Source: a bacterium
GTDB lineage: Bacteria > Hydrothermota > Tepidihabitantia > B3-TA06
Reading direction: 5' to 3'
DNA length: 42,069 nt
Assembly (NCBI GenBank): GCA_012517375.1
Contig: JAAYVC010000022.1
Span: forward strand, 1 to 42,069
A program made the translations under genes and the position numbers. Position 1 is the first letter of the stretch. The number at the start of each line of letters is the position of its first letter. Under the pieces are notes generated by a model. That model made no database searches. It saw only the letters and a list, made by a program, of their open reading frames with translations, and was not told where the DNA came from. Shown here piece after piece: positions 2,700-17,622 of the stretch.

Positions 2700-2706
2700 A
2701 ATAATA

Positions 2707-2734
2707 TTGACACATCCCGTACCCGGGATAAACT
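2707..2734 (+). promoter_or_regulatory. Predicted promoter with inverted repeat in the spacer
   Basis: TTGACA (2707-2712), 16-base spacer, TAAACT (2729-2734), then 7 bases to the ATG at 2742 with no ribosome binding site. The spacer holds a perfect 6-bp inverted repeat, ATCCCG-TACC-CGGGAT (2714-2729), placed where a bound repressor would block polymerase. Confidence 0.5.
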
Positions 2735-2741
2735 TGTTAGT

Positions 2742-3317
2742 ATGGGTTTCCTCAAGTGCTGGCTTACAAGTTACTTCAATCCAGGCAGGGCGTTCGAAAA
2801 TCTCAAGGATAAGCCCATCTATTGGGGAATTTCAGGAGTTCTTGCTTGCTGGATAGGTCGCTCCGTCCTTATAATCTTCCCCCTTTATCTCCTCGGATAC
2901 GAACCATTGACCGAATCGTGGCTGGCGTTCCTTCCTACCGAGCACTACTACCTTGCCGAGATATTCTTCCTTCCCGTCCTTGGACTCCTGCAGTGGCTTA
3001 CCGCGGGCTCGTTTATGTACCTTTTGCTGAGATTCGTGAAGGGCATCCGCGATTTCGACACTGTACTCAACTACACAGGCATGGCCGCACTCATCGTTTT
3101 TCCCGCAGGGCTTTTACTCGACTGGGTAACAATCCTTTCGGGAGGCTGGAATCTTATGGTGCTCGCAATAACACATTCGTTTCTTGCGCTGTACGGCATA
3201 TTTCTTGGTTCGGTTGCCCTAAGCCGCATCTTCAAGCTTCGCTTATGGCTGGCACTCGGATTTACGATACTCGTGACGCCTTTAGAAATCCTATGGGGAG
3301 CGATATTCTCTAGATAG
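2742..3317 (+). CDS. Yip1-like small membrane protein
   Basis: A 191-residue protein with five likely membrane segments (about 28-54, 69-98, 108-132, 136-160, 168-189) and a short N-terminal cytoplasmic segment with NPGRAFENL. That opening followed by a five-helix bundle is typical of bacterial Yip1-domain proteins (PF04893), whose function is not known. No catalytic motif is visible. The start is chosen because the -10 box is 7 bases upstream; there is no Shine-Dalgarno site. The gene stands alone, with a fresh promoter downstream for the next gene. Confidence 0.5.
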   Translation: MGFLKCWLTSYFNPGRAFENLKDKPIYWGISGVLACWIGRSVLIIFPLYLLGYEPLTESWLAFLPTEHYYLAEIFFLPVLGLLQWLTAGSFMYLLLRFVKGIRDFDTVLNYTGMAALIVFPAGLLLDWVTILSGGWNLMVLAITHSFLALYGIFLGSVALSRIFKLRLWLALGFTILVTPLEILWGAIFSR

Positions 3318-3330
3318 GTACATAAACCTG

Positions 3331-3358
3331 TTGACAAGCCACGCTTTAGCCGTAATCT
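3331..3358 (+). promoter_or_regulatory. Predicted promoter of the helical-protein pair
   Basis: TTGACA (3331-3336), 16-base spacer, TAATCT (3353-3358). A leader of about 24 bases would carry AAAGGAGG before the GTG at 3389. Confidence 0.6.
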
Positions 3359-3388
3359 CAGTCGGTAGCAGGATACAAAGGAGGCAGC

Positions 3389-4210
3389 GTGCCCGATTTA
3401 TTAGAAATCACGCGTGATTATCACAAAATCGTGAGTAAAAGACTCGAAGCGAGCGGATTATCGCCGGAGCAGCTTGCGGTTCACAAGCGAACTCTCGAAC
3501 TTGCCGCATCCGTAAAAGATGTAGGCGACCTCGAGGCAAAAAAGGAAGCGGAGGACCTCACCTTCAAGCTCGCGCAGTCCATATCCATAGACAACTGGAA
3601 TGCTAAGGCCAAGGCGGCCTTAGAGTCCGGCGAGTGGCTCGCAAGGGATGTGTTCGATGAAACATGCAAAGAAGCCAAAGCCTCGTCCAACCACGCGTCG
3701 CTCGCCAAATCGGTCGATGAGGCGAGCGCCAAAGGCGCAGAGAAACTCGCAATCCAGGAATACGTAAAGAGCTCGTTCCTCTCCGCATTATACGCTATCT
3801 TTGCTTACCGCATCACTCATCCCGCCAACGCCGAAGAACGCAAGAGGCAGAAGGCGAATCTCGACATTTACTCCTCGGAGATAAAAAAGAAAGGCGCAAA
3901 CTTCGAGCAGCTTCTCAAGGATACTTACTTCAAAAGCTTTGCTCCGCTATCCGGCGAGCAGTGGCAAGAGGTTGAAAAGGTCTGCAAATCCATGCAATCC
4001 GCTGAGACCGACAAGCAAGCTCAGACATCTCTCGCAGAGGACGTCAAGAAGGCAACCGAGGCGCTCAAGGGCAAGTCGAAGGAACTCAAGGAGCTCCAGG
4101 TCTACATAGAATCGACTGGCACGCGAGAAGCATACCTCGGTATTTCCCCTAAGGTTGAACCGGGGCCGTATACATTCGAAAAGATATGGGAAGGGAGCAG
4201 AGATGAATGA
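3389..4210 (+). CDS. Unrecognised helical cytoplasmic protein, first of a coupled pair
   Basis: I do not recognise this 273-residue protein. It is rich in Ala, Lys, Glu and Leu, is predicted almost wholly alpha-helical with coiled-coil-like stretches (about 40-65, 150-180, 205-235), and has no signal peptide or convincing membrane segment (one moderately hydrophobic stretch near 128-142). The start is GTG with a perfect AAAGGAGG site 5 bases upstream. Its stop overlaps the next start in ATGAATGA, so the two proteins are probably made in fixed ratio and may form a complex; that is inference. Confidence 0.75.
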   Translation: MPDLLEITRDYHKIVSKRLEASGLSPEQLAVHKRTLELAASVKDVGDLEAKKEAEDLTFKLAQSISIDNWNAKAKAALESGEWLARDVFDETCKEAKASSNHASLAKSVDEASAKGAEKLAIQEYVKSSFLSALYAIFAYRITHPANAEERKRQKANLDIYSSEIKKKGANFEQLLKDTYFKSFAPLSGEQWQEVEKVCKSMQSAETDKQAQTSLAEDVKKATEALKGKSKELKELQVYIESTGTREAYLGISPKVEPGPYTFEKIWEGSRDE

Positions 4211-5282
4211 GCAGGTTCGCCAGATGGTAGCGGGATTTGCGCTCGCGTACGAAACGTACAAGGGCATGCTGTCCGCAGAAGAGTTCCGCCCGCTCGAGTC
4301 GGTCTACAAAGAGATGATGACAATTGCCGAGGCCGCTTCCGATTTCATGGCTTTCAACGACGCTGCCACGAAGGCCGATATCTTCACGCGCCTGTCTGCA
4401 GAACTCGGAAAGGCTCAGGCTCTCATCGACTCCAAACCCAAATCCGAACGCAGGACGCTATCCGCCGATGGATTCATCGCTCAATACCGCATTCTATACG
4501 AGCAGGCGCAGTCGACGCCGCACGCATACCGCACGCGCGAGGTTTACGAAAAGCTGCTTGCGCTCGGAGAAGGCGCGCAAACGCCTCTCGATGTTGTCGC
4601 AAAGGCAGAAAGGGATAACCTCTTTCACAAGATAGGCGCGATGGGTGTCTTCGACACCTACAAGCTCGACTACGACAAGACCGATCCGAATGAAACCATA
4701 CTCAGAGATTTCCGCAAGGACGTTATAAGAATCGCAGAAGAATCCAATACCGCAGATGAGCTTACGTACAAGGTCGACAAGCGTATGTACGAGTCGCAGA
4801 AAGAGATAGCGCACGATAATTTCATCACCCAGATGATTGCCAACCTGGTGGACTCGTTCCTGAATCTCGAACTCTCCAAGGCAGCCGTAAGGATAGGAAA
4901 GAACGAGTACATCGTGGCCGTTGCGATTTACCGCGAGGAGGCTCGTGAGGCATACCGAATCCTTAAGGACGAGTTCGGATTGGACTGGGATAAATTCATC
5001 TCCACCGAACGCTACAGGAAGCGGTTTCTTATGCAGTCGGCAGTCCTTGCGGAAACCGTCCGCGTTTTTCAGGCGATGGCGCCGGAGAATCTCGAATGGA
5101 TGCGTGAAACGCTCTTCGAAGAGATACTCTCCCCGCTCTCCCTTGCAGATATCATCCTGCGCAAGCCGGCAAAAGTCTTTCATCCGCTTGCCATGGAGGA
5201 ACATTCTAGAAAACACGGCATAGACGCAAAGCTGAAGTCCAGAGCGCAGGAGCTCCTCAAGGATTTCTACTGGGCGAAATGA
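4203..5282 (+). CDS. Unrecognised helical cytoplasmic protein, second of a coupled pair
   Basis: This 359-residue protein is not recognised. It is helical, charged (many Arg, Glu, Lys), with no signal peptide or membrane segment. The frame is open back to 4155, but the ATG at 4203 is preferred: it follows a GGGAG site and overlaps the preceding stop by eight bases, a usual coupling geometry. No catalytic signature, zinc motif or nucleotide-binding loop is visible. The 62 bases after the stop hold no clear terminator, so the following lipoprotein gene could be read through. Confidence 0.75.
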   Translation: MNEQVRQMVAGFALAYETYKGMLSAEEFRPLESVYKEMMTIAEAASDFMAFNDAATKADIFTRLSAELGKAQALIDSKPKSERRTLSADGFIAQYRILYEQAQSTPHAYRTREVYEKLLALGEGAQTPLDVVAKAERDNLFHKIGAMGVFDTYKLDYDKTDPNETILRDFRKDVIRIAEESNTADELTYKVDKRMYESQKEIAHDNFITQMIANLVDSFLNLELSKAAVRIGKNEYIVAVAIYREEAREAYRILKDEFGLDWDKFISTERYRKRFLMQSAVLAETVRVFQAMAPENLEWMRETLFEEILSPLSLADIILRKPAKVFHPLAMEEHSRKHGIDAKLKSRAQELLKDFYWAK

Positions 5283-5344
5283 ATCGCTCGAAACCTTTTA
5301 TCTGAAACTTGCGTCGTCAATTATGAATCTTAAAGGAGAAGTGC

Positions 5345-5698
5345 ATGAAATTTTTAATCAATTGGATAGTAGCAGTTTTCGCGGTACTGGCTCTCGGGTG
5401 CAGCGGCGTGTCACAGGCAGGGATAAGGATAGACAATCCCGACGACAAGGAAGTCAAATTTGCGGGCTACTACGAAAGCAACTCAGGCAGAAACGAAATA
5501 GACGGAGTCACGAGGGCCACTTACAAGGTTCAGGTCTCCGACACCGGCGATTTTATTAGGATTGCTCTGGTCAAGGCGGACGCCACCGACACCGTGAATG
5601 AGCTTCGAGTCAAGCTTTTTTACGCCGGTCGCCGGGGTATAGCCACAGTCACTGAACCGGGCGACAGCGCCGTAATAGAATACGAAGTCAGGTTCTGA
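5345..5698 (+). CDS. Small predicted lipoprotein
   Basis: A 117-residue protein with a type II signal peptide: hydrophobic residues 4-17, lipobox LALGC with Cys19. The mature part is about 98 residues, probably beta-rich, with alternating polar/hydrophobic strands and a C-terminal VIEYEVRF strand; family unknown. AAAGGAG lies 6 bases before the ATG. It would be lipidated and anchored on the periplasmic side of a membrane. It follows the helical pair by 62 bases, but shared function is not shown. Confidence 0.8.
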   Translation: MKFLINWIVAVFAVLALGCSGVSQAGIRIDNPDDKEVKFAGYYESNSGRNEIDGVTRATYKVQVSDTGDFIRIALVKADATDTVNELRVKLFYAGRRGIATVTEPGDSAVIEYEVRF

Positions 5699-5754
5699 CA
5701 GGATATAGCATTTTTGCATCTGCCGAAAGTGCCCAATATAAATAGCTTTCCCTA

Positions 5755-5804
5755 TTGACAAAACCCTCCATATTCATATCCTTGAAGCGCTTTTTCAAGG
5801 AGGA
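5755..5804 (+). promoter_or_regulatory. Promoter plus hairpin overlapping the ribosome binding site
   Basis: TTGACA (5755-5760), 16-base spacer, TATCCT (5777-5782). Just downstream CCTTGAA (5780-5786) can pair with TTCAAGG (5794-5800) across a 7-base loop, and the 3' arm runs into the AAGGAGGA ribosome binding site (5797-5804). Since transcription would start near 5789, the 5' arm may not be in the RNA, so it could equally be a DNA operator. Confidence 0.4.
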
Positions 5805-5807
5805 TGA

Positions 5808-6344
5808 ATGAAATATCACATTCTAGCAATTGTTCTTTCTTTCTTTACCGCTTCGTCTCCTTCCGAGGTAGATGAGAACGCCTTGCGAAGGGAGATAACC
5901 TACATTGAACGCGCGGCGGATGAACTTGCCAGGCTCAATATCGACGTAGCAGACAGGCTTCAGAGGCGCAGGATCGCCTCAAAAATCGACGCCATATACG
6001 AAGCCACGGAAAGGATTCGGCTTCTTCTCGATCAGGATACGGTTCCGAAATCCATAAGGGACGATGATCTCATTAGCTTCATTGAATCCCTGGGGAAAGC
6101 GAGTTTTGGTGACACTAAGGTCGACATGGTCAAGGAGTTTGCCGGTTCCAACTGGTTCACGGTTTCGCAGGTAGGGCTTATTTGCGAGGAGATACCTTTC
6201 GGTGAAAACAAGGTTGAGGCTATTCTTGCCCTTTACCCGCACATCGTAGATAAGGAGAACGGCTACAAACTATACGAATTCGTGACCTTCTCCGATGACC
6301 GCGAACGGCTGAAGAAAGGACTCGAGGAACTCAAGGGAAACTAG
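5808..6344 (+). CDS. Exported DUF4476-domain protein
   Basis: The protein has 178 residues: an N-terminal signal peptide (about 1-16), a helical charged region (20-80) and a C-terminal DUF4476 domain (about 88-175). The domain is recognised from its pattern of short helices: LISFIESLG, FTVSQVGLIC, IPFGENKVEAILALYPHIVD and a final FSDDRERLKKGL. DUF4476 is common in exported Bacteroidetes-type proteins and its function is unknown. AAGGAGGA precedes the ATG. The next gene starts 7 bases after this stop, so it heads an operon with the protease and the hydrolase genes. Confidence 0.7.
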   Translation: MKYHILAIVLSFFTASSPSEVDENALRREITYIERAADELARLNIDVADRLQRRRIASKIDAIYEATERIRLLLDQDTVPKSIRDDDLISFIESLGKASFGDTKVDMVKEFAGSNWFTVSQVGLICEEIPFGENKVEAILALYPHIVDKENGYKLYEFVTFSDDRERLKKGLEELKGN

Positions 6345-6351
6345 ATACCCT

Positions 6352-7176
6352 ATGCGCATCGCGGTCATCCTTAGCCTTTTTTTTCAAGGCCGTTTTGATC
6401 CCCTTAGCCTTCATCTTCCAAGAAACGATGCAGATTATCTCTCGAAAAGGGTCGCAGCTATAGAGGACACTTCGGGCCGGTTCCTCGGTTCGGGGTTCTT
6501 CGTCTCGCTCGACGAGCGGCCCCGCTGGGTATACCTTGCTACCAACTTTCATGTTGCCGGCCGGAGCGGACGAGTGATCGCTTTCGTGAACGGACACTCA
6601 TATACTGTAAGACCTTTCGTAAAGGACAGCATCGCAGACATCGTTCTCATGACAATAGATGTACGCCAAAGGAATGCATCGGATTCCTTTGGGGATCCCG
6701 ACTCGCCGGCCTCAGAGACCCCTCCTCCCTCCTTTTCGTTGCCGGCAACCGTGCAACGCTCACGTTTCATACTCGACCGTTCCCTGCTCTGGCCCGGAAT
6801 GTTTACGGTGCTTTCCGGCTACCCGTTCGGCGCCGGACTCGATTACCCATATTCGCCTTCTCTTTCGTTCGGACGCATCTCACGCATGGACGGCCAGGAC
6901 TCAATGATCCGCATCGAGGGGATTCTGGACCTTGGCTCGAGCGGCTCGCCCGTTTTCACATGGGTATCCTCCGACGCAGGAGAGAGAGTGCGGCTTCTTG
7001 GCATGGCTCGCAGCTTCCAGGTTGCCAGATGCCTTTCAAGCCAGGCTGGCGATACGCTCGTTGTTCAATCCGGTCTCTACGAGATAGTGCCGGCGTGGCT
7101 TATATATAAGGTTCTCTTAAAGGCGGATTCTACAGTAATGGCTTTCATCTCTAAAAGAAACGAAGAGGAGCAGTAA
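6352..7176 (+). CDS. Trypsin-like serine protease
   Basis: A 274-residue chymotrypsin-fold protease. The catalytic triad is visible: His67 in TNFHVAG, Asp96 in SIADIVLM, and Ser197 in GSSGSP (195-200), the variant of GDSGGP usual in DegP/S1C and glutamyl-endopeptidase-like enzymes. No PDZ domain follows, so it is not a full DegP. Residues 2-12 are hydrophobic and may act as a short signal peptide, which would place it in the envelope; this is uncertain. A proline-rich insertion lies at 117-130. The ribosome binding site is weak, so translation probably depends on the DUF4476 gene 7 bases upstream. The stop shares one base with the next start (TAATG). Confidence 0.82.
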   Translation: MRIAVILSLFFQGRFDPLSLHLPRNDADYLSKRVAAIEDTSGRFLGSGFFVSLDERPRWVYLATNFHVAGRSGRVIAFVNGHSYTVRPFVKDSIADIVLMTIDVRQRNASDSFGDPDSPASETPPPSFSLPATVQRSRFILDRSLLWPGMFTVLSGYPFGAGLDYPYSPSLSFGRISRMDGQDSMIRIEGILDLGSSGSPVFTWVSSDAGERVRLLGMARSFQVARCLSSQAGDTLVVQSGLYEIVPAWLIYKVLLKADSTVMAFISKRNEEEQ

Positions 7177-7517
7177 TGCCTTCTAAACCTTCAAAAAAGA
7201 AACTTTGCGACCACTGGGGTGAAGATGCATGCACGATAGAGGGCCTGGTGCTCGAGCGTCTGGGCGATTTTTACAGGGTTCGCGGCAAAGCGACAAACGC
7301 CATGGAATGCACTCTTCCGCACCTCCGGCTCAAGCTAACGATTTACAACTCCAAGGGAGCGAGCATCGTGGAGGATGTATTTCACATCACTAACCGCAAA
7401 CTCGCTCCTCATGAGTCGTCGGAATTCAAGATAGAAGGCGAGTGGATAAGGGGAATGAACAGGGCAAAAATAACTTTGCATGCCTATCCTGTGGAGAAAC
7501 GATATGAGCATATTTGA
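7176..7517 (+). CDS. FxLYD-domain protein (split partner of the next gene)
   Basis: The protein has 113 residues and is essentially one FxLYD-type beta-sandwich: VRGKATN (about 34-40), LPHLRLKLTIYNSKG (48-62), and a closing strand KITLHAYP. The same domain, with a shared leading pattern Trp-x-Glu-x2-Cys-x-Ile, is the N-terminal half of the proteins at 8604 and 9831, where it is fused to the hydrolase. Here it ends in TGA and the hydrolase follows in another frame, overlapping by 14 bases. This may be an old frameshift or the ancestral two-gene form. No signal peptide is seen. Confidence 0.75.
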   Translation: MPSKPSKKKLCDHWGEDACTIEGLVLERLGDFYRVRGKATNAMECTLPHLRLKLTIYNSKGASIVEDVFHITNRKLAPHESSEFKIEGEWIRGMNRAKITLHAYPVEKRYEHI

Positions 7518-8184
7518 ATCGAAGCCAAGATTTCGCGAGATAAACACCTGGCAGGACGAATTGAGGCTTGGTTCAAAGAGAGCGGTTCTTCAGCGGGGCG
7601 ATATACTATTCATCGGCGGAGAGAACGTCACAGATATAACAGGCGTTTTCGGAACCGCGGTGACGCTCGTCACGAACAGCCCTTACTACCACATGGCAAT
7701 CTACGACCACGCAGGCCGGTTCGTTCACGCAGGGTGGCCCAAGGTAGAAAGCCGGGACCTCCGCATCTTCTACCTCAAAAAAAGCAATGGGATACTCACC
7801 TGGGGCCGGCCGAGGCACAGAGACGGCAGACCTGTAACAGAGGAGGAGGCGTCAAAGGTCATAGCGTTCGCAGAGGAGCAGATTGGCAGACCCTACGACA
7901 TAATGGCGAACCTTTCCTTTCTTTTCCGCGTGGACGGTCTTCCCGAAGTGCCTCCCTTTGTCCGCAAGATGTTCCAGGACCGCAACTGGCTCGAGGATAA
8001 CAAGAAATGGCACTGCTCCGAGCTCGTAGGCGCTTCATGGTTCAAGGCCGCAGGAGTCATCTTTGTTGAAGATATGGACAGCAAGAGCTATCTTTCTCCC
8101 GCAGACATCTACGACTCGCTTTATCAGGACGTGGTCTGCACCCTCAAGCTCCGGGACGGCCGCTTCAAGCTCCTGACAAAATAG
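7504..8184 (+). CDS. Permuted NlpC/P60 (YiiX-like) cysteine hydrolase, copy 1
   Basis: From the ATG at 7504 the protein has 226 residues; the frame is open to 7480, but 7504 has a GGAGAAA site and matches the paralogs. The order is that of the circularly permuted NlpC/P60 fold (PF05708 type): RGDILF (31-36), His63 in SPYYHMAIYD, VHAGWPKV (74-81), QIGRPYD (126-132), then the nucleophile Cys171 in KWHCSELVGASW. Such enzymes hydrolyse amide or thioester bonds in peptidoglycan, lipids or proteins; the substrate cannot be read here. Coupled to the FxLYD gene by a 14-base overlap, last in the operon starting at 5808. Confidence 0.8.
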   Translation: MSIFESKPRFREINTWQDELRLGSKRAVLQRGDILFIGGENVTDITGVFGTAVTLVTNSPYYHMAIYDHAGRFVHAGWPKVESRDLRIFYLKKSNGILTWGRPRHRDGRPVTEEEASKVIAFAEEQIGRPYDIMANLSFLFRVDGLPEVPPFVRKMFQDRNWLEDNKKWHCSELVGASWFKAAGVIFVEDMDSKSYLSPADIYDSLYQDVVCTLKLRDGRFKLLTK

Positions 8185-8313
8185 CCCGTAACACCCGTAA
8201 CACACCATCCCGTCGATCACCGAAGAATACGAAGCATTGGCTTTTATCGTCGCCATTGCATGTCTTTGGGGATCCCCACCCGTAACACCCCCGTAACACC
8301 CCCGTAACACACC
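8185..8313 (+). repeat. CCCGTAACAC tandem repeats (left arm)
   Basis: Two short arrays begin immediately after the stop of copy 1: CCCGTAACAC at 8185-8206 (period 9) and again at 8277-8313 (period 11, three units). They are the reverse complement of the GGGTGTTAC array at 8470-8536. The 70 bases between the two sub-arrays hold nothing I recognise. The arrays are contiguous, with no unique spacers, so this is not a CRISPR. Confidence 0.85.
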
Positions 8314-8469
8314 ACCGACCGCCACCCCCGTACCCAAAGGGCTCTCTCATATTTGCGTGCAGACCTCCGGTTTTCCATTCTTCAATAATATATCACCACT
8401 GCCCAATTAGATAGAGATGCATCCCAGGATGTGCGGCAATCGGAGGGGGAAAGGGTGTCGGTGCGTTGC

Positions 8470-8536
8470 GGGTTTTGCGGGTGTTACTGGTGTTGCGGGT
8501 GTTACGGGTGTTACGGGTGTTACGGGTGTTACGGTA
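8470..8536 (+). repeat. GGGTGTTAC tandem repeats (right arm)
   Basis: About six units of a 9-base repeat, GGTGTTACG, perfect at the right end and degenerate at the left (GGTTTTGCG, GGTGTTACT, GGTGTTGCG). It ends in GTTACGGTAAC, itself an inverted repeat, two bases before the -35 box of the next gene. It is inverted relative to 8185-8313, so a transcript across this 419-base gap could fold into a long hairpin. Between the arms (8314-8469) I see nothing coding. Confidence 0.85.
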
Positions 8537-8538
8537 AC

Positions 8539-8566
8539 TTGACAAAATTCGCCTGCATTATACAAT
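8539..8566 (+). promoter_or_regulatory. Predicted promoter of hydrolase copy 2
   Basis: TTGACA (8539-8544), 16-base spacer, TACAAT (8561-8566). The -35 box abuts the GGGTGTTAC array. A leader of about 31 bases carries GAGGAGG before the ATG at 8604. Confidence 0.6.
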
Positions 8567-8603
8567 CCATCCAAAAACATAAACACCTTTTCGAGGAGGA
8601 TAT

Positions 8604-9656
8604 ATGCATTACCCTATCTGCGAGAACTGGGACGAAAACGTCTGCGAGATAAAGCTCGATAAAGGAGCGAAACCCGAGAAGCAGGGGAACTTTTTCCGTG
8701 TCCAGGGTTCTGTCAAAAACGTGCATGCCGATAACTGCAATTTACCTCATATAAGGCTGGACGTCTCCTTCTTCGATAAAAAGGGAAAGCCTTTGGATGT
8801 GGGAGTACTCGGGGAGGAGGAGGAGAACGTTAATCTGCGCGGCAACGTCGTTCACGTGAGCGACAGGGCAATATCACCGAATGAGACAACCTTTTTCAAA
8901 TTCGAAGGCATCTGGAACGACATGATAGAGAAGGTTGAGGTCAAGACCCATCCGAAAGAAGAAAGGCTTCTCCTGCTCGCGCCGTCCGTGCCTGCGGGGC
9001 TGGAGCTTACGCCTATCAACTCATGGCAGGACAGGATATCGTTCGAAGGGAAATCGGCGGTAATCCAGAGAGGCGACATCGTGCTCGACGCGGGACCCGC
9101 ACAAGGGGTCATCAGGGTCTTCTCTGCCATGATAGCGATGGTTACCAACTGCCCGTACCATCACGCCATGGTATACGACTGCGGATGGAATGTCGTTCAT
9201 GCGACGTGGCCCAAGGTCGAGCGCAACTCCCTCGAGAACCTGTACCTGAATCAGCCGGACGCGGTACTAACGTGGGTCAGGCCGAAGTACAAGAACGGCA
9301 AGGCCGTAACTGAGGCAGACGCAAAAAAAGCCCTCGCTTTCGCCTCGAAGCAGATAGGCTGCGACTACGACATCATAGCGAACGCCGGATTCCTCTTCCG
9401 CGCCGACGGGCTTCCCGGGATGCCTTTGGAGATAGAAAAGCTATTTCAGGAGCGCAACTGGCTTGCCGATCACTCGAAGTGGCACTGCTCCGAACTTGCA
9501 GGAGGGGCGTGGTGGCTTGGCGCCGGGCTCGAACTCGTGGAAGATATGCGGCAGAAGGACTTTCTTTCACCGGCCGACATCTACACCTCGTTCTACCACG
9601 ACATCGTCTGCAGCTTTGTGATAAAAGACGGCAAGGCGAAGCTTTATACAAAATAA
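8604..9656 (+). CDS. FxLYD plus permuted NlpC/P60 cysteine hydrolase, copy 2
   Basis: A 350-residue fusion of the two domains that are separate genes at 7176 and 7504. The N-terminal FxLYD domain covers about 1-117 (LPHIRLDVSFFDKKG at 47-61) with an extra acidic loop EEEEN at 71-75. The hydrolase covers about 135-350: RGDIV (156-160), His187 in CPYHHAMVYD, VHATWPKV (198-205), QIGCDYD and nucleophile Cys295 in KWHCSELAGG. No signal peptide or membrane segment is visible. The ATG follows GAGGAGG by 6-7 bases. It has its own promoter, so the copies can be expressed independently. Confidence 0.85.
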   Translation: MHYPICENWDENVCEIKLDKGAKPEKQGNFFRVQGSVKNVHADNCNLPHIRLDVSFFDKKGKPLDVGVLGEEEENVNLRGNVVHVSDRAISPNETTFFKFEGIWNDMIEKVEVKTHPKEERLLLLAPSVPAGLELTPINSWQDRISFEGKSAVIQRGDIVLDAGPAQGVIRVFSAMIAMVTNCPYHHAMVYDCGWNVVHATWPKVERNSLENLYLNQPDAVLTWVRPKYKNGKAVTEADAKKALAFASKQIGCDYDIIANAGFLFRADGLPGMPLEIEKLFQERNWLADHSKWHCSELAGGAWWLGAGLELVEDMRQKDFLSPADIYTSFYHDIVCSFVIKDGKAKLYTK

Positions 9657-9661
9657 CTAAT

Positions 9662-9736
9662 CCCGTAAAAATCGCTGCGTGATTTTTACGGGGACCCAGA
9701 TGAAGCCCTTTTAAATCGCGTTGCGATTTAAAAGGG
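9662..9736 (+). repeat. Pair of strong hairpins between copies 2 and 3
   Basis: Hairpin A: a 12-bp perfect stem CCCGTAAAAATC (9662-9673) with GATTTTTACGGG (9681-9692), loop 7. Hairpin B: a 14-bp perfect stem CCCTTTTAAATCGC (9706-9719) with GCGATTTAAAAGGG (9723-9736), loop 3. Neither is followed by a T-run on the plus strand, so they are not classic intrinsic terminators. Both begin in CCC, end in GGG and share an ATCGC-type centre, and a relative lies at 10945-10971: a small hairpin family. Confidence 0.75.
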
Positions 9737-9770
9737 AACCAAAAAAACAATACATCAATCTTGGATTGTG

Positions 9771-9798
9771 TTGACTTTGAATAGCCTCTGGTTAGTAT
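9771..9798 (+). promoter_or_regulatory. Predicted promoter of hydrolase copy 3
   Basis: TTGACT (9771-9776) with TAGTAT (9793-9798) at 16-base spacing; TATAAT at 9796-9801 is a better hexamer but at 19 bases. The leader carries CCGGAGG before the GTG at 9831. Confidence 0.5.
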
Positions 9799-9830
9799 AA
9801 TCAAAATCGAAATTATTCCGGAGGCAGCAA

Positions 9831-10865
9831 GTGGAGATTTTAACCGCAGTACGAAAAACCAGTCAAGGGCACGGAACTGACTCGAGTAGAAGCTGGTCTG
9901 AAAGCGCCTGCGCCATAAAAAATCTCGAATGGTCAAGGAGAGGGGATTTTCTTGAGGTTTCGGGAACCGTTACAAACTTGACGCAAGAGAGCCTTCCGCA
10001 CCTCATGCTCCGCATCAAGCTCTACAACAAGGACTCAAGGCTGCTCCTTACCGACGATTTTCATCTCACCAATCGGTTGCTCAAATCAGGGCAAACGTCC
10101 GCTTTCAGGTACTCTTGCGAGTACAGAAACGGCATCTCGCTCGCAAGCGTCTCGGTCTGTCCATACCCCAGCGAGCTCGATATCTCCGTTGACCCTTCAC
10201 CCCGCATCAGAATCCGCGAGCTAAGCTTGCTTCAGGATGAGCTAAGCGTCGGCAACAAGAAGGTAATTATCCAGAAAGGTGATCTTGTGTTCGCGCGTGT
10301 GGACGATGTATTAGACAAATCTGCAGCCCTTGGCGGACCCGTGCGTCTTGTTACAAGAAGCCCTTATTATCACATGCTGATATACAATCATGCTGCAAAA
10401 TTCGTTCACGCCTTCTGGCCTGCTACCGAGGAGAACGATCTATTTGATTTTTATCTCAAAAGACCCAATCTGCTTCTTGCATTCGGACGCCCCCTGCACA
10501 AGGATTTTTCTGAAGCCACGCCCGAAGAAGGTTCAAGGGCCGTCGAGTATTCAAAGACCCAGATAGGCAAGCCTTACGACGTTGGTGCGAACTTCTCCTA
10601 CCTCTTCCGTACTGACGGAGTGCAGAAGATGCCTTACTTCCTCAGGAGATTTTTCGATAAAAGCAACAGGCTAAGAAGTTCAAGGAAGTGGCAGTGTTCG
10701 GGGCTGGCTTGTGCCGCATGGTTCAATGCAGCCGGCATCGAATTCGCTGACAACCTCCAAGACTACATATACCTTTCGCCTGCCGATATGGCGGAGTCTA
10801 ATTACACAAGGCTTTATGCCTATCTTAAGGTTTCGGACGGTGAACCTACACTTCTGAAAAAATAA
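9831..10865 (+). CDS. FxLYD plus permuted NlpC/P60 cysteine hydrolase, copy 3
   Basis: A 344-residue protein with the same fusion as copy 2. FxLYD domain about 20-112 (VSGTVTN at 43-49, LPHLMLRIKLYNKDS at 55-69); hydrolase about 128-344 with QKGDLVF (148-154), His181 in SPYYHMLIYN, VHAFWP (192-197), QIGKPYD (244-250) and Cys289 in KWQCSGLACAAW. The Glu after the nucleophile in copies 1 and 2 (CSEL) is Gly here (CSGL), a hint of altered activity. The GTG start follows CGGAGG by 6-7 bases. Sequence differs widely from copies 1 and 2, so the duplications are old. Confidence 0.84.
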   Translation: MEILTAVRKTSQGHGTDSSRSWSESACAIKNLEWSRRGDFLEVSGTVTNLTQESLPHLMLRIKLYNKDSRLLLTDDFHLTNRLLKSGQTSAFRYSCEYRNGISLASVSVCPYPSELDISVDPSPRIRIRELSLLQDELSVGNKKVIIQKGDLVFARVDDVLDKSAALGGPVRLVTRSPYYHMLIYNHAAKFVHAFWPATEENDLFDFYLKRPNLLLAFGRPLHKDFSEATPEEGSRAVEYSKTQIGKPYDVGANFSYLFRTDGVQKMPYFLRRFFDKSNRLRSSRKWQCSGLACAAWFNAAGIEFADNLQDYIYLSPADMAESNYTRLYAYLKVSDGEPTLLKK

Positions 10866-10944
10866 TACCCAATAAGCTGCCCCAGGATACTGCATGACAA
10901 TCCCCGACATTTTCTCAGCTAATCGGCAACTTCAAAGGGGGGTG

Positions 10945-10971
10945 CCGTAAAATTACGCGGTGATTTTACGG
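10945..10971. terminator. Hairpin between convergent genes
   Basis: CCGTAAAATTAC (10945-10956) pairs with GTGATTTTACGG (10960-10971) across a 3-base loop, with one G-U type mismatch. It sits between the convergent ends of hydrolase copy 3 and gatE and resembles hairpin A at 9662. No strong T-run follows on either strand, so termination is inferred from position. Confidence 0.5.
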
Positions 10972-10975
10972 GGCG

Positions 10976-12898
10976 TTAAATAATTTCGAGGAGTTTGCGA
11001 GCCTTTTCAGGCTCTGCCTTGCCTGCGCTCTGCTTTATTGCCTCCCCTGTAAGGAAGTCGAGTTTCAAATCTCGAGTCTTGAATGCAATATCCGTGAAAT
11101 CGTTTTTGACTTTTTTGCACAAAACCTCGAGCTCCTCTTCGTTAAGAGGAGAAGGCGGTTCCTGAAATTCGCCGTATAAAAGCCTCTCGAAAGCCACGTA
11201 GACGCCGTATCGCGGGGTGTTGCGTTCCGAGACGAGAGTAAGAAAACGCTCAAGATTTTCGTCCGACACATATGGCGGATTGAGCCCTACCTCTAACATG
11301 TCCCTTGTTATTTCGCGCCTCCATGAAATCAAAACCTCGGCGAGGAATCCCGGTTCAATCTGGATTTTGTCCACCAGCCTGTCGAAGAGCCTTGCTCTTG
11401 TATCTATCGCCAACTCTTTTGCAAGATGTTGAGGGATGTCCATGTTCTGGTAGCGTTCCTCGCGTTCCCACGGACGGGGCGCCATATCCTTGGCTATCCT
11501 CTCCACTCTTTCTCTGGCAAGCGCTATCGGCGGAGAGTCCGTATCAGGGTACATCCTGTCCGGACCTGGAAGAATGCGTTCAAAGTCGGTACGGCAGGCA
11601 TCAGGCATGTGCTGGCGCGTTTCCTGCGGTACGAACTCGGTAGCTTCCTTCGCCCTTGCGATTACCTCATCTGCGGCGGTCTTTGCATCCTCAACGGTTC
11701 CCCAGACGAGCACGACCGCATCGTTTGAAGAAGCCTTAATGGCCTTGCGCAGCCGAACCTCCTCCTCAAGACCAATCCCCTCGCCCTTCTCGTCTAGGAT
11801 GAACATGTTAGGCATCTCATCTAGGCATGCTATCACACGCACGCGCCCCGCAATCTCGTTAGCAAAAGTCAGCCCAGGCTGTGTCTTGTGTCTCAGGAGT
11901 TCGTCCCAGCCCTCGAGTACTACCGCTTTCACAACATTTCCCCGCTTGACCCTTGCCGAAAGTCTCTCCGAGGTAGAATTCGTCATAAGACTCGTAACGT
12001 CAACCTCCCTCGCGCTGAAACTCTCCGCAGTAATCCCCTTCTCGGCCAGCTTTTCCTTGAGTTCGAGGAGCGCCTTATGCCGCAAGGCTTCGTAGTGGGT
12101 GAGCGCCCGAATGTCAGGCGTTCTCGGGACACCCTTTATCTCGACCCTGTCTGAACCTGCAATCGATACGTTGACGTCCTGGCGCGCGGAGCCGATGCCC
12201 CTTCTCACCCTCCCGGACGCTCTCAGCAGTCTGCCCAGAAGTTCGTCTACCTCCGCCGCCTCGTGCGGGGTGAACATGTCCGGTTTTGTAACAATCTCAA
12301 TCAAGGGCGTCGAGAGGCGGTCCGTTCTGAATATTATCGTATGGCCTTTGTCCTCCACCTCCCTGCATGCGTCCTCCTCAAGCGCCAGCTGCTGGATCCT
12401 CACTTTTCTTCCCCTGTACGGTATCCAGCCGTTGACGCCGATTATGGCTGTGCGCTGGAAGCCTGTGGGAATCGAACCGTCCAGATACTGCTTGCGCGTG
12501 ATGTGCACCTCGTCCACAAGCTGGCAGTTCAGCATGAGCGCTATCTCTATCGCATAATCCAGAGCTTCCTGGTTTATGGGGAAGGGCGGGGTGTCGTCCA
12601 TCTCGTAGGTGCAGACGTTGTCCCTGTAGAGCTGGTATATGACCTGTTTTTTCGTCTTGAACTCCATGAGCGCGGTGCCGTCGTATGTTCCCATCTCCGA
12701 GAGCGTGGGCCGCATGTGTCTTAAGATAACGGCATCCGGCTCATCGTTTCTGTATCCCACCGGGCAGTGGCAGAAGAGCTTCTTTTTGGTGTTCAACTGC
12801 TGGTGAATCTCGAGTCCGCACTTGAAACCAAGTGCTGAATAGAACTCCTTGTCGTCGAAATCCACGCCCTCGGTCAATTTCTTATGCCACGCATCCAT
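10976..12898 (-). CDS. gatE: Glutamyl-tRNA(Gln) amidotransferase subunit E, archaeal type
   Basis: A 640-residue GatE. With GatD it converts Glu-tRNA(Gln) to Gln-tRNA(Gln). Signatures of the GatB/GatE kinase domain are clear: GLEIHQQL near residue 26, DGSIPTGFQRT, the FRTDRLSTPLIEI block and a SARQDVNVSI block. The central GAD-type insertion and a C-terminal YqeY-like tail fit GatE, which is longer than bacterial GatB (about 480). The frame is open to 13165, but the ATG at 12898 is chosen: it shares one base with the gatD stop (TAATG) and starts the protein just before the conserved GLEIH region. GatE is generally regarded as archaeal, so its presence beside bacterial genes is notable. Confidence 0.92.
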   Translation of the reverse strand: MDAWHKKLTEGVDFDDKEFYSALGFKCGLEIHQQLNTKKKLFCHCPVGYRNDEPDAVILRHMRPTLSEMGTYDGTALMEFKTKKQVIYQLYRDNVCTYEMDDTPPFPINQEALDYAIEIALMLNCQLVDEVHITRKQYLDGSIPTGFQRTAIIGVNGWIPYRGRKVRIQQLALEEDACREVEDKGHTIIFRTDRLSTPLIEIVTKPDMFTPHEAAEVDELLGRLLRASGRVRRGIGSARQDVNVSIAGSDRVEIKGVPRTPDIRALTHYEALRHKALLELKEKLAEKGITAESFSAREVDVTSLMTNSTSERLSARVKRGNVVKAVVLEGWDELLRHKTQPGLTFANEIAGRVRVIACLDEMPNMFILDEKGEGIGLEEEVRLRKAIKASSNDAVVLVWGTVEDAKTAADEVIARAKEATEFVPQETRQHMPDACRTDFERILPGPDRMYPDTDSPPIALARERVERIAKDMAPRPWEREERYQNMDIPQHLAKELAIDTRARLFDRLVDKIQIEPGFLAEVLISWRREITRDMLEVGLNPPYVSDENLERFLTLVSERNTPRYGVYVAFERLLYGEFQEPPSPLNEEELEVLCKKVKNDFTDIAFKTRDLKLDFLTGEAIKQSAGKAEPEKARKLLEII

Positions 12899-14286
12899 TA
12901 CCTTAGACCTCTTTTCAAGAACTCCTCGATTTCTGGAAGCCCGCCCTGGAAGATTAAATACCCGTCGTGAGGCTCGCGCTCCGTTATCTCGCCGTTGACC
13001 GGCGTGTTCATCATCTGCGCCACCTCCTGTCTTTCGTGCGTGTGCGCGAGCACCCAACCGAGCTTTATGTAGGCGACCTCGGGCAGCATGTTCAAACAAG
13101 GCACGACGCCCAGTTCCATCAAATCTCTTCCCGTGTCGTAGACGAACATCTGAACATAGCCCCACAAGGTCTGAACGGTCATGACCACCGAGATGCCCTG
13201 CTTGCAGGCCTTGCGAAGCGGTTCGTAGAGCGGCTTGTTGACGTGTCCGAGGCCGGTGCCTGCTATAACGATGCCCTTATAGCCGTTGTCTATCAATGAT
13301 TCTATGATGTCCGGCTTCATCGCGGGGTAGTAGTAGACTATAGCCACGCGGTCGTCGAACACCGCATCCACCTTCACATTGCGGTCGTCTCTTCTGGGCT
13401 TGAAATCCTTGCGTAACGGCTTCACCTCGTCCGGCGTGCAGGTCGCTACAGGTATATCCGAAAGCGTGCGAAACGTCGAGCGGTAGGAAGAGTGCATCTT
13501 GCGGACCCTCGTACCCCTGTGCAAGAGATTGTACGAATCCGAAGTTGGCCCGAACATGCAGACCATCACCTCCGCTATCGGTCCTCTTGCCGCCGTGTTG
13601 CAGGCGCACCTCAAATTAAACGCCGCGTCCGAGGACGGTCTATCCGACGAACGCTGGGAGCCTACCATGATTATCGGCACGGGCGAGTCCTGAACCATGA
13701 AGGTCAATGCCGCCGCCGTGTGGTGCATGGTGTCGGTTCCGTGGCCTATCACTATTCCCGCTGCCCCTGCCTCTATCTCTCTTCCTATGGCCTTTGCCGT
13801 AGTGATGTACTGCTCTGGTCCCATGTTCTCACTAAATACCCCGAAGAGCTTCTTCGTCTTCAAATTGCAGATATCGGCTAGCTCTGGCACCGCGCCGTAA
13901 AGCTCGCCCGGGGTAAACGCCGGAATAACGGCACCCGTCCGGTAGTCCAACCTCGAGGCAATAGTCCCCCCAGTCCCCAGGAGCGTAACGTTAGGCTTTG
14001 CGGGATCGAACGGGAACTCCTTTTCCGGAATCTTGTAGTGCGCCTCGCGGAACCCCTTCTCGGTTACCCTCTTTATCCTGTCAACTGCCAGGCCTACATT
14101 GTATCCGGTATCCAGTTTCAAAACCATGTGCTGGTCGTCGGCCTGTTCGGAGCGTGGAAGTATGATGCCTTCAAAAATCCCCTTGTCGGTCTCAATCTCG
14201 ACGTCCGCCCATACCCGCGCCCCCATACTCGAAAGAACCTCGCGCGCGCGTCCGCGGTAGCCTTTAAGTTGGTCAGTTTCGTTCAT
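12898..14286 (-). CDS. gatD: Glutamyl-tRNA(Gln) amidotransferase subunit D, archaeal type
   Basis: A 462-residue GatD, the glutaminase/asparaginase-like subunit that supplies ammonia to GatE. An N-terminal beta-barrel domain (about 12-75) precedes an L-asparaginase type I fold. Catalytic residues read as Thr105 in LGTGGTIA, Thr184-Asp185 in GHGTDTM and Lys263 in RKMHSSYRSTF, matching the four-residue set known in GatD of Methanothermobacter. The N-terminal domain distinguishes it from plain asparaginases. AAGGAAAAG precedes the ATG. The gene opens a two-gene operon with gatE, which starts inside its stop codon. Confidence 0.92.
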   Translation of the reverse strand: MNETDQLKGYRGRAREVLSSMGARVWADVEIETDKGIFEGIILPRSEQADDQHMVLKLDTGYNVGLAVDRIKRVTEKGFREAHYKIPEKEFPFDPAKPNVTLLGTGGTIASRLDYRTGAVIPAFTPGELYGAVPELADICNLKTKKLFGVFSENMGPEQYITTAKAIGREIEAGAAGIVIGHGTDTMHHTAAALTFMVQDSPVPIIMVGSQRSSDRPSSDAAFNLRCACNTAARGPIAEVMVCMFGPTSDSYNLLHRGTRVRKMHSSYRSTFRTLSDIPVATCTPDEVKPLRKDFKPRRDDRNVKVDAVFDDRVAIVYYYPAMKPDIIESLIDNGYKGIVIAGTGLGHVNKPLYEPLRKACKQGISVVMTVQTLWGYVQMFVYDTGRDLMELGVVPCLNMLPEVAYIKLGWVLAHTHERQEVAQMMNTPVNGEITEREPHDGYLIFQGGLPEIEEFLKRGLR

Positions 14287-14321
14287 TTAATCTTTTCCTT
14301 CGGGTCTTTGTATTGGGAGTG

Positions 14322-14349
14322 ATGATACTCCACATGTGTCAAAAGTCAA
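14322..14349 (-). promoter_or_regulatory. Predicted gatDE promoter
   Basis: Minus strand TTGACT (14349-14344), 16-base spacer, TATCAT (14327-14322). A leader of about 29 bases includes AAGGAAAAG ahead of the gatD ATG. Confidence 0.55.
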
Positions 14350-14399
14350 GAAGTTAGGAACACAAAGAGTGCTTTGTTTTCACCTTCGGGATTTTCCAA

Positions 14400-14640
14400 T
14401 CACATGTTTATCTCCCCCTCCCTGGTGGACAGCGTGCCCCTTGGGGTGCCTGCATCCCATAGGGTAGGGGGGAAGGGGGCGGGGAGTCATTGCGAAATTA
14501 AATCGTGGCTCCGAAGGGCGGCGCTTGCGGAACAATCTCATAGCAGAGAGCTTATGCACATGGCTCTAACTTGCTTGCTTTGAGAAAGTGCCGTGAGATC
14601 GCCACGGTCGCCTTCGGCTTCCTCGCGATGACAAAACTGT
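14400..14640. repeat. Dispersed repeats between gatD and the broken HNH gene
   Basis: This gap contains a C-run/G-run element (about 14412-14482, CCCCCTCC then GGGGGGAAGGGGG) with an internal insertion, followed by a CATTGCGA...GAACAATCTC unit (about 14489-14540) and a GAGATCGCCACGG...CCTCGCGATGAC unit (about 14595-14634). They are variants of the elements at 1-50, 379-535 and 1395-1625. No coding frame or RNA gene is supported. Confidence 0.6.
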
Positions 14641-14644
14641 TTAC

Positions 14645-14672
14645 TTGACAAGACAACTTAGATGTGTAGCCT
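14645..14672 (+). promoter_or_regulatory. Predicted promoter of the broken HNH gene
   Basis: TTGACA (14645-14650), 16-base spacer, TAGCCT (14667-14672), then 8 bases to the ATG at 14681, with no Shine-Dalgarno site: leaderless type. Confidence 0.5.
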
Positions 14673-14680
14673 CTCTTTAA

Positions 14681-15343
14681 ATGCCCGAATTTACATACGA
14701 CTTGAGCGCAAAGAAAGTTAAGCTTACTGATGCCGAATTACTATCCTCATTGGAAGGGTTTGCGGAAGAAGTGGATTTTAGATATTTTCCGACAACTGAA
14801 TACGATAGGTGGAAAACCAAGATAGCAACTTCAAACACGATTGTAAAGCGATTCGGGTCATGGAACAAAGCCCTTCGCATTATCGGAATTGAAGGTGGTC
14901 ATGAACGTAGATATACACCTGAGGAACTTATTGAAAACTTAGAAGTTGTGTGGAAAGAATTAGGCTATCCACCAGGGAAAAGAAGGTTAAGTAAATATGG
15001 TTTGAAGATTTCGGAAACCCCGTATAAGAAGATTTGGGGAAGTATTAAGTCTGCATGTGAGTTCATATATAGGTATCATGAAGGCAAAATCTCCCGCGAA
15101 GAACTTCTTAAAGATAATATTGAGAAAGTTAATAGAGATTCGATACCTTTGAAAGTAAGATGGGAAGTGCTTAAAAGGGACAATTACAAGTGCGCGATGT
15201 GCGGATAAAGTCCTGCAAAGACTAATGACATTGAACTAGAAATAGACCATATTATTCCTGTTGCTAAAGGTGGCACTAATGATATTGATAATTTACAGAC
15301 TTTGTGCCGGAAGTGCAACCAAGGGAAGAAAGATAGGATGTGA
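14681..15343 (+). pseudogene. HNH homing-type endonuclease interrupted by one in-frame TAA
   Basis: Two helical repeats of the HNH-associated homing type come first: IVKRFGSWNKALRIIGI (about 54-70) and a second around 78-130. The HNH domain begins at PLKVRWEVLKRDNYKCAMCG (156-175), but codon 176 is TAA. The same frame then continues open for 44 codons with everything the domain needs: the DH pair in EIDHIIP, the NLQTLC block and a second zinc pair, Cys-x2-Cys-Asn, before a final TGA at 15341. One base change (for example AAA to TAA) explains the break. The 175-residue product lacks the catalytic histidine and half the zinc site, so it should be inactive unless the stop is read through. Repeats flank both sides. 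Confidence 0.85.
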
Positions 15344-15600
15344 CTTCCGTAGGGGTCGACCTTCAGGTCGGCCCGAAAAGAATCACGAAATTGCTCCCTA
15401 CGTTCGCCCTGCGGAGCTTCGGATGCTCGAAACATCCTCGCAATGACTTTTATTCTCCTCCCCCTTGATGGGGGAGGCTGGGAGGATGTGAAACTCAAGA
15501 GCAGTTAAAAGTTTGGCTCACCGCCCCCTACCCCCCTTCAAAGGGGGGCGAATTTCTCCCCCTGACGCGCAGCGTCAAACCTGGTCACGAAGCATTAAAC
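15344..15600. repeat. Dispersed repeats downstream of the broken HNH gene
   Basis: GAGCTTCGGATGCTCGAA (15414-15431) is identical to 1456-1473 and is followed by CTCGCAATGAC. Two C/G-run elements follow (about 15458-15485 and 15523-15560), and a small hairpin TGACGC-GCA-GCGTCA (15563-15577). Nothing coding is seen. Confidence 0.6.
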
Positions 15601-15636
15601 CGGACTCGTGCGGGGTCTTATGAGGGGACTTTGTAC

Positions 15637-15711
15637 AGTTTTTGACCAGCTTTTGGGTAGCTTTTGACCATCTTTTGTCCAGTTTTTGTCCATAAAACGT
15701 GACCACGTTTT
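15637..15711 (+). repeat. Five 11-bp direct repeats plus palindrome upstream of glmS
   Basis: Five contiguous 11-base units (15637-15691) have the consensus AGCTTTTGACC: units AGTTTTTGACC, AGCTTTTGGGT, AGCTTTTGACC, ATCTTTTGTCC, AGTTTTTGTCC. Two bases on lies a perfect 8-2-8 palindrome, AAAACGTG-AC-CACGTTTT (15694-15711), then ACGAAT-6-ATTCGT (15717-15734). With one unit per helical turn, the array is arranged like protein-binding sites on one face of DNA, 70-140 bases before the glmS promoter. An operator role is inference. Confidence 0.6.
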
Positions 15712-15777
15712 GGCATACGAATTCCAAGATTCGTGCTACGAAACCGGCGGTCGGGAATTTAGCAGAATTTGGCTGCC

Positions 15778-15805
15778 TTGACAACCGCTCCGGGCTAGTT
15801 ATCAT
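15778..15805 (+). promoter_or_regulatory. Predicted glmS promoter, leaderless type
   Basis: TTGACA (15778-15783), 16-base spacer, TATCAT (15800-15805), then 8 bases to the ATG at 15814. No ribosome binding site and no room for a glmS ribozyme after the predicted transcription start. Confidence 0.6.
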
Positions 15806-15813
15806 TAAACCCA

Positions 15814-17622
15814 ATGTGTGGATTCTTTGCAATCTCCTTTAATAAAGAGCGCGCGGATCTTGGTCAGATTCTATATCGAGCAGGTACGCGTCTTGCATAT
15901 CGCGGCTACGATACAGCCGGTGTCGCTACAATCTCTGAGAGCGGTCAGCTTGACCTTCGTAAGGACGCAGGCGAGGTCGAAGAGCTGAACGAGATTCTTG
16001 GATTCTCGCATATGACCGGCCAGCGCGGCATCATTCAGCTGCGCTGGGCTACATTCGGCTTTCCCAATAAGGAAAATTCCCAGCCCCATCACGACTGTAA
16101 ACGCTTCATAGTCGGAGCGCACAACGGCAACATAATAAATACCAGGAACTTGCGCGAGGAGTTATCTTCCGCCGGTCACAATCTTGCAGGCGAAAACGAC
16201 GGCGAAGTAATCCTTCACCTTCTTGAGTCTCCGTTCTATGAAACGAAAAACCTGAGACAGGCGGCACGCGAGGCGTCTTCGAGAATAAAAGGAGCCTATG
16301 CCTACGTCGCCACGACGCTCGACGGCGACGGGTTCGTCTCAGTAAAAAGCGGTTCATCCCTTTTCTTCGGCATAGGCGAAGGCTTCCGCTGCGTTTCGAG
16401 CGACCTCATTGCAATTCTCGACCTCACGCGCAACGTCATGCAGCTTCAAGATGGGGAGCTTATTCATTTTACATCCGACAATCACGCCGTTTACGATCTT
16501 CACAACGTGGATATCCCTCTAAACAGGGAAAGCGAAATACTGACCCTTACTCCGGAGGAGGTTTCGAAGGGTGACTTTCCGCACTTCATGCTTAAGGAGA
16601 TTCACGAGATTCCATCCAAGGCGCAGGAAGTCATTCGGTATCTTCCCAAGGCTGAGCACACATCCACTGTAGTAGAAAAAATTACAAGCGCCAGACGCGT
16701 TTTCTTTGTGGGCGCGGGCTCTTCTCATTTCGCTGGACTACTTGGTTCATTTTACTTCGGTCGGCTTGCCAAGATACCTGTGACCGCGTCTTTCGGATCG
16801 GAGTTTCTCGAAAAATACCCGGATTGCGTGGGTGAAAAGGACGTCGTTCTTTTGATCTCCCAAAGCGGGGAAACGAAAGATATTAAAAATGTACTTGATG
16901 TAATCGAGAATCGAACGCAGGTTATCTCTCTCGTTAACAACATAGGCTCCACACTTGCCATGCGTTCAACATATGTCGTCCCGATTGCTTCCGATCTGGA
17001 GATAGCGGTTCCGGCAACTAAGACTTACGTGAACCAGGTCATAGCGCTTCTCTATCTTGCTCTAAGAGCGGCACAGCTTAAGGGCGGGAACGGGCTTTCC
17101 GCGAGGGAGTTTCTTACGCTTCCAGGTCTTTTGCAGAGGGTTCTTCAAAACGAGAGCAAGGTCGCATCGTTCGCGGACGAATTATCCTTGTGGCCTGATG
17201 CATACTATCTCGGATACGGGATGAGCTATCCTGTCGTGATGGAAGGAGCGTTGAAGATGAAGGAGATAACATACCTTCACGTAGAGGGTATGTACTCAGG
17301 AGAGTTCAAGCACGGACCTATCTCCAGGCTTGAAGAAGGCTATCCAGTGCTTTTCGTGGCTTCAGCTCCTGAAAAATACTACATACTTTCTCACGTGAAT
17401 GAAGTCAGAACGCGCAAGGGGAGGGTCTTAACAATTGGTCCAAGCGATCCGGAACTCGAAGCAGACAGCGATTTGTACTTTCAGCTTCCGGACGCGAGCC
17501 CTGTACTTATGCCCATACTTGCCACGGTACCTTTGTATATGATTGCCTATAGAACCGCCGTCGGAAAGGGCTGCAATCCTGACAGACCGCGTAATATCTC
17601 CAAGACGATTACGGTCGATTAA
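15814..17622 (+). CDS. glmS: Glutamine-fructose-6-phosphate aminotransferase (isomerizing)
   Basis: A 602-residue GlmS, making glucosamine-6-phosphate from fructose-6-phosphate and glutamine, the first step to UDP-GlcNAc for peptidoglycan. The N-terminal glutaminase domain starts at the nucleophile Cys2 (MCGFF), with RGYDTAG, RWATFG and GAHNGNI motifs; the two histidines usual around RWAT (HTRWATHG) are absent. Two SIS domains follow (about 285-420 and 455-590), with SQSGETKD, GALKMKEITYLHVEG and EFKHGP blocks, and the C-terminal NPDRPRNISKTITVD tail is intact. The start must be this ATG, because Cys2 has to be exposed. The gene stands alone, with 110 AT-rich bases after it. Confidence 0.95.
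   Translation: MCGFFAISFNKERADLGQILYRAGTRLAYRGYDTAGVATISESGQLDLRKDAGEVEELNEILGFSHMTGQRGIIQLRWATFGFPNKENSQPHHDCKRFIVGAHNGNIINTRNLREELSSAGHNLAGENDGEVILHLLESPFYETKNLRQAAREASSRIKGAYAYVATTLDGDGFVSVKSGSSLFFGIGEGFRCVSSDLIAILDLTRNVMQLQDGELIHFTSDNHAVYDLHNVDIPLNRESEILTLTPEEVSKGDFPHFMLKEIHEIPSKAQEVIRYLPKAEHTSTVVEKITSARRVFFVGAGSSHFAGLLGSFYFGRLAKIPVTASFGSEFLEKYPDCVGEKDVVLLISQSGETKDIKNVLDVIENRTQVISLVNNIGSTLAMRSTYVVPIASDLEIAVPATKTYVNQVIALLYLALRAAQLKGGNGLSAREFLTLPGLLQRVLQNESKVASFADELSLWPDAYYLGYGMSYPVVMEGALKMKEITYLHVEGMYSGEFKHGPISRLEEGYPVLFVASAPEKYYILSHVNEVRTRKGRVLTIGPSDPELEADSDLYFQLPDASPVLMPILATVPLYMIAYRTAVGKGCNPDRPRNISKTITVD

Follow-up and report, generated by a model that had tools for sequence, protein, structure and literature searches.

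A second lineage of GatDE in WOR-3 bacteria, probably an accessory Glu-tRNA(Gln) amidotransferase beside GatCAB

Introduction

The closest described relatives of the system reported here are the archaeal amidotransferase GatDE, with solved structures from Methanothermobacter (2d6f) and Pyrococcus (1zq1), and the bacterial amidotransferase GatCAB. The transamidase subunits GatE and GatB are homologous, but GatB is devoid of the AspRS-like insertion, and the glutaminase is of the amidase type in GatA and asparaginase-like in GatD. In archaea, GatDE is the only route to Gln-tRNA(Gln). A 2022 review considers GatDE to be now restricted to archaea, a distribution on which the LUCA scenarios that it describes are based (PMC9499178). 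The pair read by archaeal GatDE is A1:U72 of tRNA-Gln (PMC9499178), and published identity data indicate that bacterial amidotransferases read U1-A72 (PMC9976931). GatCAB is reported to be retained despite the presence of AsnRS and GlnRS in Bdellovibrio, Deinococcus and Thermus (PMC4206432).

Here, we describe a gatD–gatE pair from a WOR-3/Stahlbacteria metagenome-assembled genome (MAG) of 2.54 Mb (96.9% complete, 0.3% contaminated). It is located on contig C22 (JAAYVC010000022.1), whose 42,069 nucleotides are hereafter called the window. Like archaeal GatDE, the pair consists of two subunits, with the same order of domains, the same catalytic residues and membership of the same curated family. 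In contrast to it, the pair belongs to a separate deep clade, "type II," whose tail domain is poorly conserved and which coexists with GatCAB or GlnRS, and the host tRNA-Gln carry U1-A72 instead of A1-U72. With GatCAB, it shares the homologous transamidase subunit and the reaction, the latter predicted from sequence for this GatDE; the host genome holds a separate gatCAB operon besides gatDE. The retention of an amidotransferase beside direct synthetases is reminiscent of Bdellovibrio, Deinococcus and Thermus, except that their amidotransferase is GatCAB while here it is GatDE, accompanied by GlnRS or GatCAB.

The gatD–gatE Locus

The locus comprises the following features of the window:

12898..14286, minus strand: gatD, Glu-tRNA(Gln) amidotransferase subunit D, 462 aa
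10976..12898, minus strand: gatE, subunit E, 640 aa, ATG start at 12898
14322..14349, minus strand: sigma-70-like promoter match TTGACT-16-TATCAT, 5' of gatD, weak (10/12 match)

The genes overlap by one base (TAATG), the final base of the gatD TAA being the A of the gatE ATG, and both are full length, in agreement with an earlier note made from the letters of this DNA. GatD contains GatD_N (PF18195) and the asparaginase-like glutaminase domains PF00710 and PF17763 (Pfam). It passes the cut-offs of two NCBIfam equivalogs, NF003217 and TIGR02153 (517 bits against 324), which describe it better than do models of asparaginase I/II. Thr105, Thr184, Asp185 and Lys263, the catalytic residues of GatD, which the note had pointed out, are all present, are invariant across eight aligned WOR-3 GatD and align to the solved GatD chains.

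GatE is composed of a cradle/kinase domain, an AspRS-like insertion, and helical and tail domains; Pfam searches found GatB_N, and the GAD insertion scored below the cut-off. With 526 bits for NF003107 and 455 bits for TIGR00134, the protein lies above the cut-offs of both NCBIfam equivalogs (456 and 320, respectively) and is not a GatB, the best GatB model giving 170 bits versus a cut-off of 338. For both subunits, the nearest solved structures are the Pyrococcus and Methanothermobacter GatD and GatE, and neither an asparaginase nor GatB. The WOR-3 GatE profile spans nearly all of chain C of 1zq1 and 2d6f, including the tail. Similarly, when GatE was modeled with AlphaFold (mean pLDDT 88.7), the top PDB match was 1zq1 chain C (TM-score 0.81 by target), followed by 2d6f and then by GatB. 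The residues that it has in common with canonical GatE and GatB span the catalytic region. Both genes are under strong purifying selection, with dN/dS values against family members of 0.03-0.04 for gatD and about 0.07 for gatE, synonymous sites being close to saturation.

The promoter that had been assigned to the operon is only partly borne out: there is a single sigma-70-like match, but it is weak, and chance alone would give 2.2 matches of that quality over the region scanned. No Rfam match to a riboswitch or T-box was found in the window.

The neighboring genes are bacterial: uvrB, glmS and recJ, as previously noted, together with nadC and a gene for an Omp85/BamA-like protein. Since gatDE is present in all eight sampled genomes of the family, several of which share neighbors with the window, the contig is not chimeric, and the archaeal chimera that had been envisaged is rejected, as is contamination. 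As a functional clue, the neighborhood in the window's family offers just glmS and unrelated genes that are conserved; neither glnA nor a tRNA gene adjoins gatDE there. Two further features of the window are on the plus strand. At 14681-15208, between gatD and glmS, lies an ORF that carries a homing-endonuclease-associated (HNH) repeat; at 23353-27204, a gingipain-like protein of peptidase family C25 has a propeptide and weakly matches a sorting tail of the Por secretion system. The G+C content of the window passes from about 0.47-0.54 at 1-16500, which includes gatDE, to about 0.43-0.44 at 27000-42069.

Glutamine and Asparagine tRNA Routes in the Host Genome

Family searches of the MAG, on which the absence claims for the host genome rest, found a single class Ic Glu/Gln synthetase gene, which codes for a bacterial GluRS; GlnRS was not found, as the earlier note had guessed. 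They also located AsnRS on contig C121 and a gatC-gatA-gatB operon on contig C81, where gatC extends past the contig start. Among the 44 tRNA genes are two tRNA-Gln (anticodons UUG and CUG), each of which has the U1-A72 pair as well as G73; the host tRNA-Asn likewise has U1-A72. In both tRNA-Glu genes (L065:1501-1572 and L074:133-207), the first pair is apparently G1-U72 and not G1-C72.

GatCAB and GatDE occur together in 8/8 family members, and AsnRS in 21/21 WOR-3 genomes checked (20 above the cut-off and one split). In a genome of the sister family (G064), GatCAB is present while GlnRS and GatDE are both absent, so that GatCAB must make Gln-tRNA in this organism. A restriction of GatCAB to Asn, as suggested in the note, is thus unlikely, given AsnRS, the gatCAB operon, the U1-A72 pair of tRNA-Gln and the case of G064. 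Most likely, GatDE and GatCAB both act on Glu-tRNA(Gln) in the host. Because GlnRS is missing, the host GluRS would be non-discriminating. An Arg of the GluRS anticodon domain, known from Thermus, was considered as a marker of a discriminating enzyme and dropped: it is found here and also in 4gri, a non-discriminating GluRS, and was therefore judged uninformative.

A Second Clade of GatDE

In every build, GatE trees separated the canonical archaeal sequences (Thermoplasmatota, Pyrococcus and Methanothermobacter) from a second clade with a support of 100, and the careful 44-row tree, whose rows also served for the AU test, supports this split at 100/100. The GatD tree shows the same two-way split (support 100). 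The second clade, type II, contains every sampled bacterial sequence and several Thermoplasmatota, and neither GatD nor GatE of the host groups with the canonical archaeal clade. On these trees, the host GatDE is no recent loan from known archaea and represents a deep second lineage.

Of the 147 genomes of the WOR-3 phylum, 13 have a GatE above the cut-off, to which G139, where the gene is split across two contigs, can be added (14/147). These GatDE occupy four places in the GatE tree: GatE of the host family is sister to Caldisericota (100/98), and the remaining copies either group with Eisenbacteria or Myxococcota or lie near KSB1. A single WOR-3 GatE clade is rejected (p-AU 4e-10). GatDE is therefore not phylum-wide, and the view that it is an ancient trait of the phylum does not hold. 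Since the WOR-3 copies are scattered in the tree and their monophyly is rejected, lateral spread of type II GatDE between phyla is likely. The earlier description of an archaeal-type, possibly laterally acquired operon has to be reframed: the clade is separate from canonical archaeal GatDE, and the likely transfer is between phyla. A quick tree placed Thermoplasmatota outside the bacteria; the careful 44-row tree gives no direction of transfer between archaea and bacteria.

Two Thermoplasmatota, G215 (L254, L243) and G224 (L237, L238), possess a canonical GatE with an adjacent GatD plus a type II GatE. For the type II copy, no gatD was found in the flank covered, as was the case within flanks of at most 4 kb for the type II gatE of L118, L119, L123, L141, L142, L146, L153 and L187. 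Type II GatE differs from canonical GatE in having a far less conserved tail domain, a more conserved cradle, and invariant residues specific to the subfamily.

Type II GatDE Beyond WOR-3

When the species genomes of GTDB were scanned using the alignment of WOR-3 GatE, at least 585 type II GatE loci were confirmed. The scan patterns were drawn from the type II clade, so that this survey is uninformative on canonical GatE in bacteria. The best 80 of these at least 585 loci span more than a dozen bacterial phyla plus three archaeal MAGs, and include complete chromosomes (CP054675, CP070718, CP070707 and CP070631).

Type II GatDE almost always accompanies another route to Gln-tRNA, namely GlnRS or GatCAB and, for two archaeal genomes, canonical GatDE. 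Such a route exists in all 14 WOR-3 genomes with GatE, 11 of which have GatA (whole or fragmentary) without GlnRS and three (G084, G103 and G133) GlnRS without GatA. It also exists in 45 of 50 type II genomes outside WOR-3, whose completeness figures are not given: 21 have GlnRS without GatA, 11 GatA without GlnRS, 13 both and five neither. Among the four complete chromosomes, GlnRS is found in G162 and G182, GatA in G172 and both in G183. The five genomes devoid of GlnRS and GatA were considered as candidates for GatDE being the sole bacterial glutamine route. This possibility was rejected: two of the five are also without a GluRS match, and in the order of the sole-route candidate, GatE relatives without GatB mostly have GlnRS. 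Assembly gaps are hence likelier, and the five genomes probably reflect such gaps.

Three archaeal MAGs, G151, G155 and G169 (L122, L127 and L144; two affiliated with Thermoplasmata/Thermoplasmatota and one with Euryarchaeota), combine type II GatDE with a GlnRS well above the cut-off, a binning error being possible; a review states that no known archaeon has GlnRS.

Glutamine Synthetase and tRNA Genes Near Type II gatDE

The distance between glnA and type II gatDE is at most 4 kb in nine loci, which belong to several lineages, and in L126, L135, L138, L143 and L175 the genes are near-abutting in the order glnA-gatE-gatD. Five of these glutamine synthetases were checked; three are type I GlnA above the cut-off and two are more distant members. 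If the loci are taken as independent, with 0.5% for each, the probability that this association arose by chance is roughly estimated to be far below 1 in 10,000. The tRNA genes found near type II gatDE, with no others, are a tRNA-Gln(CUG) in two archaeal loci and a tRNA-Glu(CUC) immediately upstream of gatE in the WOR-3 genome G133. Both tRNA-Gln(CUG) have A1-U72; one is located between gatE and glnA (L122:3692-3765) and the other adjoins gatD (L144:5271-5342). The archaeal lineages of L122 and L144 also hold GlnRS, and GlnRS and GatDE may split the isoacceptors. The adjacent tRNA and glnA genes favor tRNA-Gln as substrate and a tie to glutamine supply.

Discussion

The host gatDE probably encodes a functional glutamine-dependent Glu-tRNA(Gln) amidotransferase of type II, accessory to GatCAB. 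We infer catalysis, substrate and accessory role beside the genes, residues, selection, phylogeny and co-occurrence observed above. By homology, GatD would hydrolyze glutamine through its Thr/Thr/Asp/Lys set and pass the ammonia to GatE, which, with ATP, would activate the γ-carboxyl of the Glu carried by tRNA-Gln and then amidate it. As no GlnRS was found in the MAG, its single GluRS would have to load Glu onto tRNA-Gln. The resulting Glu-tRNA(Gln) would be a substrate common to GatDE and GatCAB, making GatDE a second, accessory enzyme and not the sole route that it is in archaea. Several observations count against this reading: archaeal GatDE reads A1:U72 (PMC9499178) and the host tRNA-Gln carry U1-A72; conservation of the tail domain, the presumed point of contact with the tRNA elbow, is far lower in type II than in canonical GatE, which speaks against a simple carry-over of the archaeal function; and the glnA link is missing in the window's own family. 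In addition, a substrate other than Glu-tRNA(Gln) might explain why another route is constantly present. It is possible, although we hold it tentatively and as the less probable reading, that type II is a functionally distinct paralog in bacterial phyla and some Thermoplasmatota, dedicated to Glu-tRNA(Gln) correction or acting as a nitrogen-status enzyme coupled to glutamine synthetase, and operating beside GlnRS, GatCAB or canonical GatDE.

A change of substrate, toward another aminoacyl-tRNA, a non-tRNA carboxylate or glutamine metabolism with the neighboring glutamine synthetase, is unlikely. It would account for the near-constant company of another Gln-tRNA route, the two archaeal genomes holding canonical and type II GatE together, the relaxed tail with its subfamily-specific invariant residues, and the glnA-gatE-gatD clusters; yet tRNA-Gln or tRNA-Glu genes adjoin type II gatDE at three loci, and catalytic residues, fold and curated-family scores are still GatE-like. 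That GatDE makes all Gln-tRNA(Gln) while GatCAB is limited to Asn-tRNA(Asn), the arrangement of archaea that possess the two enzymes, seems quite unlikely. The presence of AsnRS in every WOR-3 genome searched, the service of GatCAB for Gln in G064 and the retention by tRNA-Gln of the pair that GatCAB reads all weigh against it, despite the missing GlnRS, the coexistence of both amidotransferases throughout the family, and the precedent of GatCAB kept beside AsnRS and GlnRS (PMC4206432).

Loss of function is very improbable: the cell has a further route at its disposal, as expected for a redundant relic on its way out, but the low dN/dS with near-saturated synonymous sites, the open reading frames and the conservation of the pair in all eight family members oppose it. 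It is extremely improbable that the pair was recently acquired from a known archaeon or that the contig is an archaeal contaminant. The restriction of GatDE to archaea in the review (PMC9499178) and the higher G+C around gatDE than in the right half of the window would be in line with such an origin, whereas the family-wide presence with common neighbors, the bacterial surroundings and the trees that split off canonical archaeal GatE and GatD contradict it.

Collectively, these data point to type II as a variant subfamily of GatDE, with a putative biological role. Its occurrence in more than a dozen bacterial phyla, complete chromosomes included, contradicts the view of GatDE as archaea-only, and the LUCA scenarios built on this view need revision. 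No paper describing GatDE in these bacteria was found in the open literature, to which our search extended. NCBIfam models already name type II proteins GatE; the gap hence lies in literature and biology rather than annotation. With names already assigned and subscription papers outside the search, no claim of priority is possible. The question raised is why a bacterium would have two complete routes to Gln-tRNA(Gln), for which the clusters with glutamine synthetase and tRNA-Gln genes are concrete leads. If type II were indeed a distinct paralog, it would constitute an unrecognized second layer of bacterial glutamine coding.
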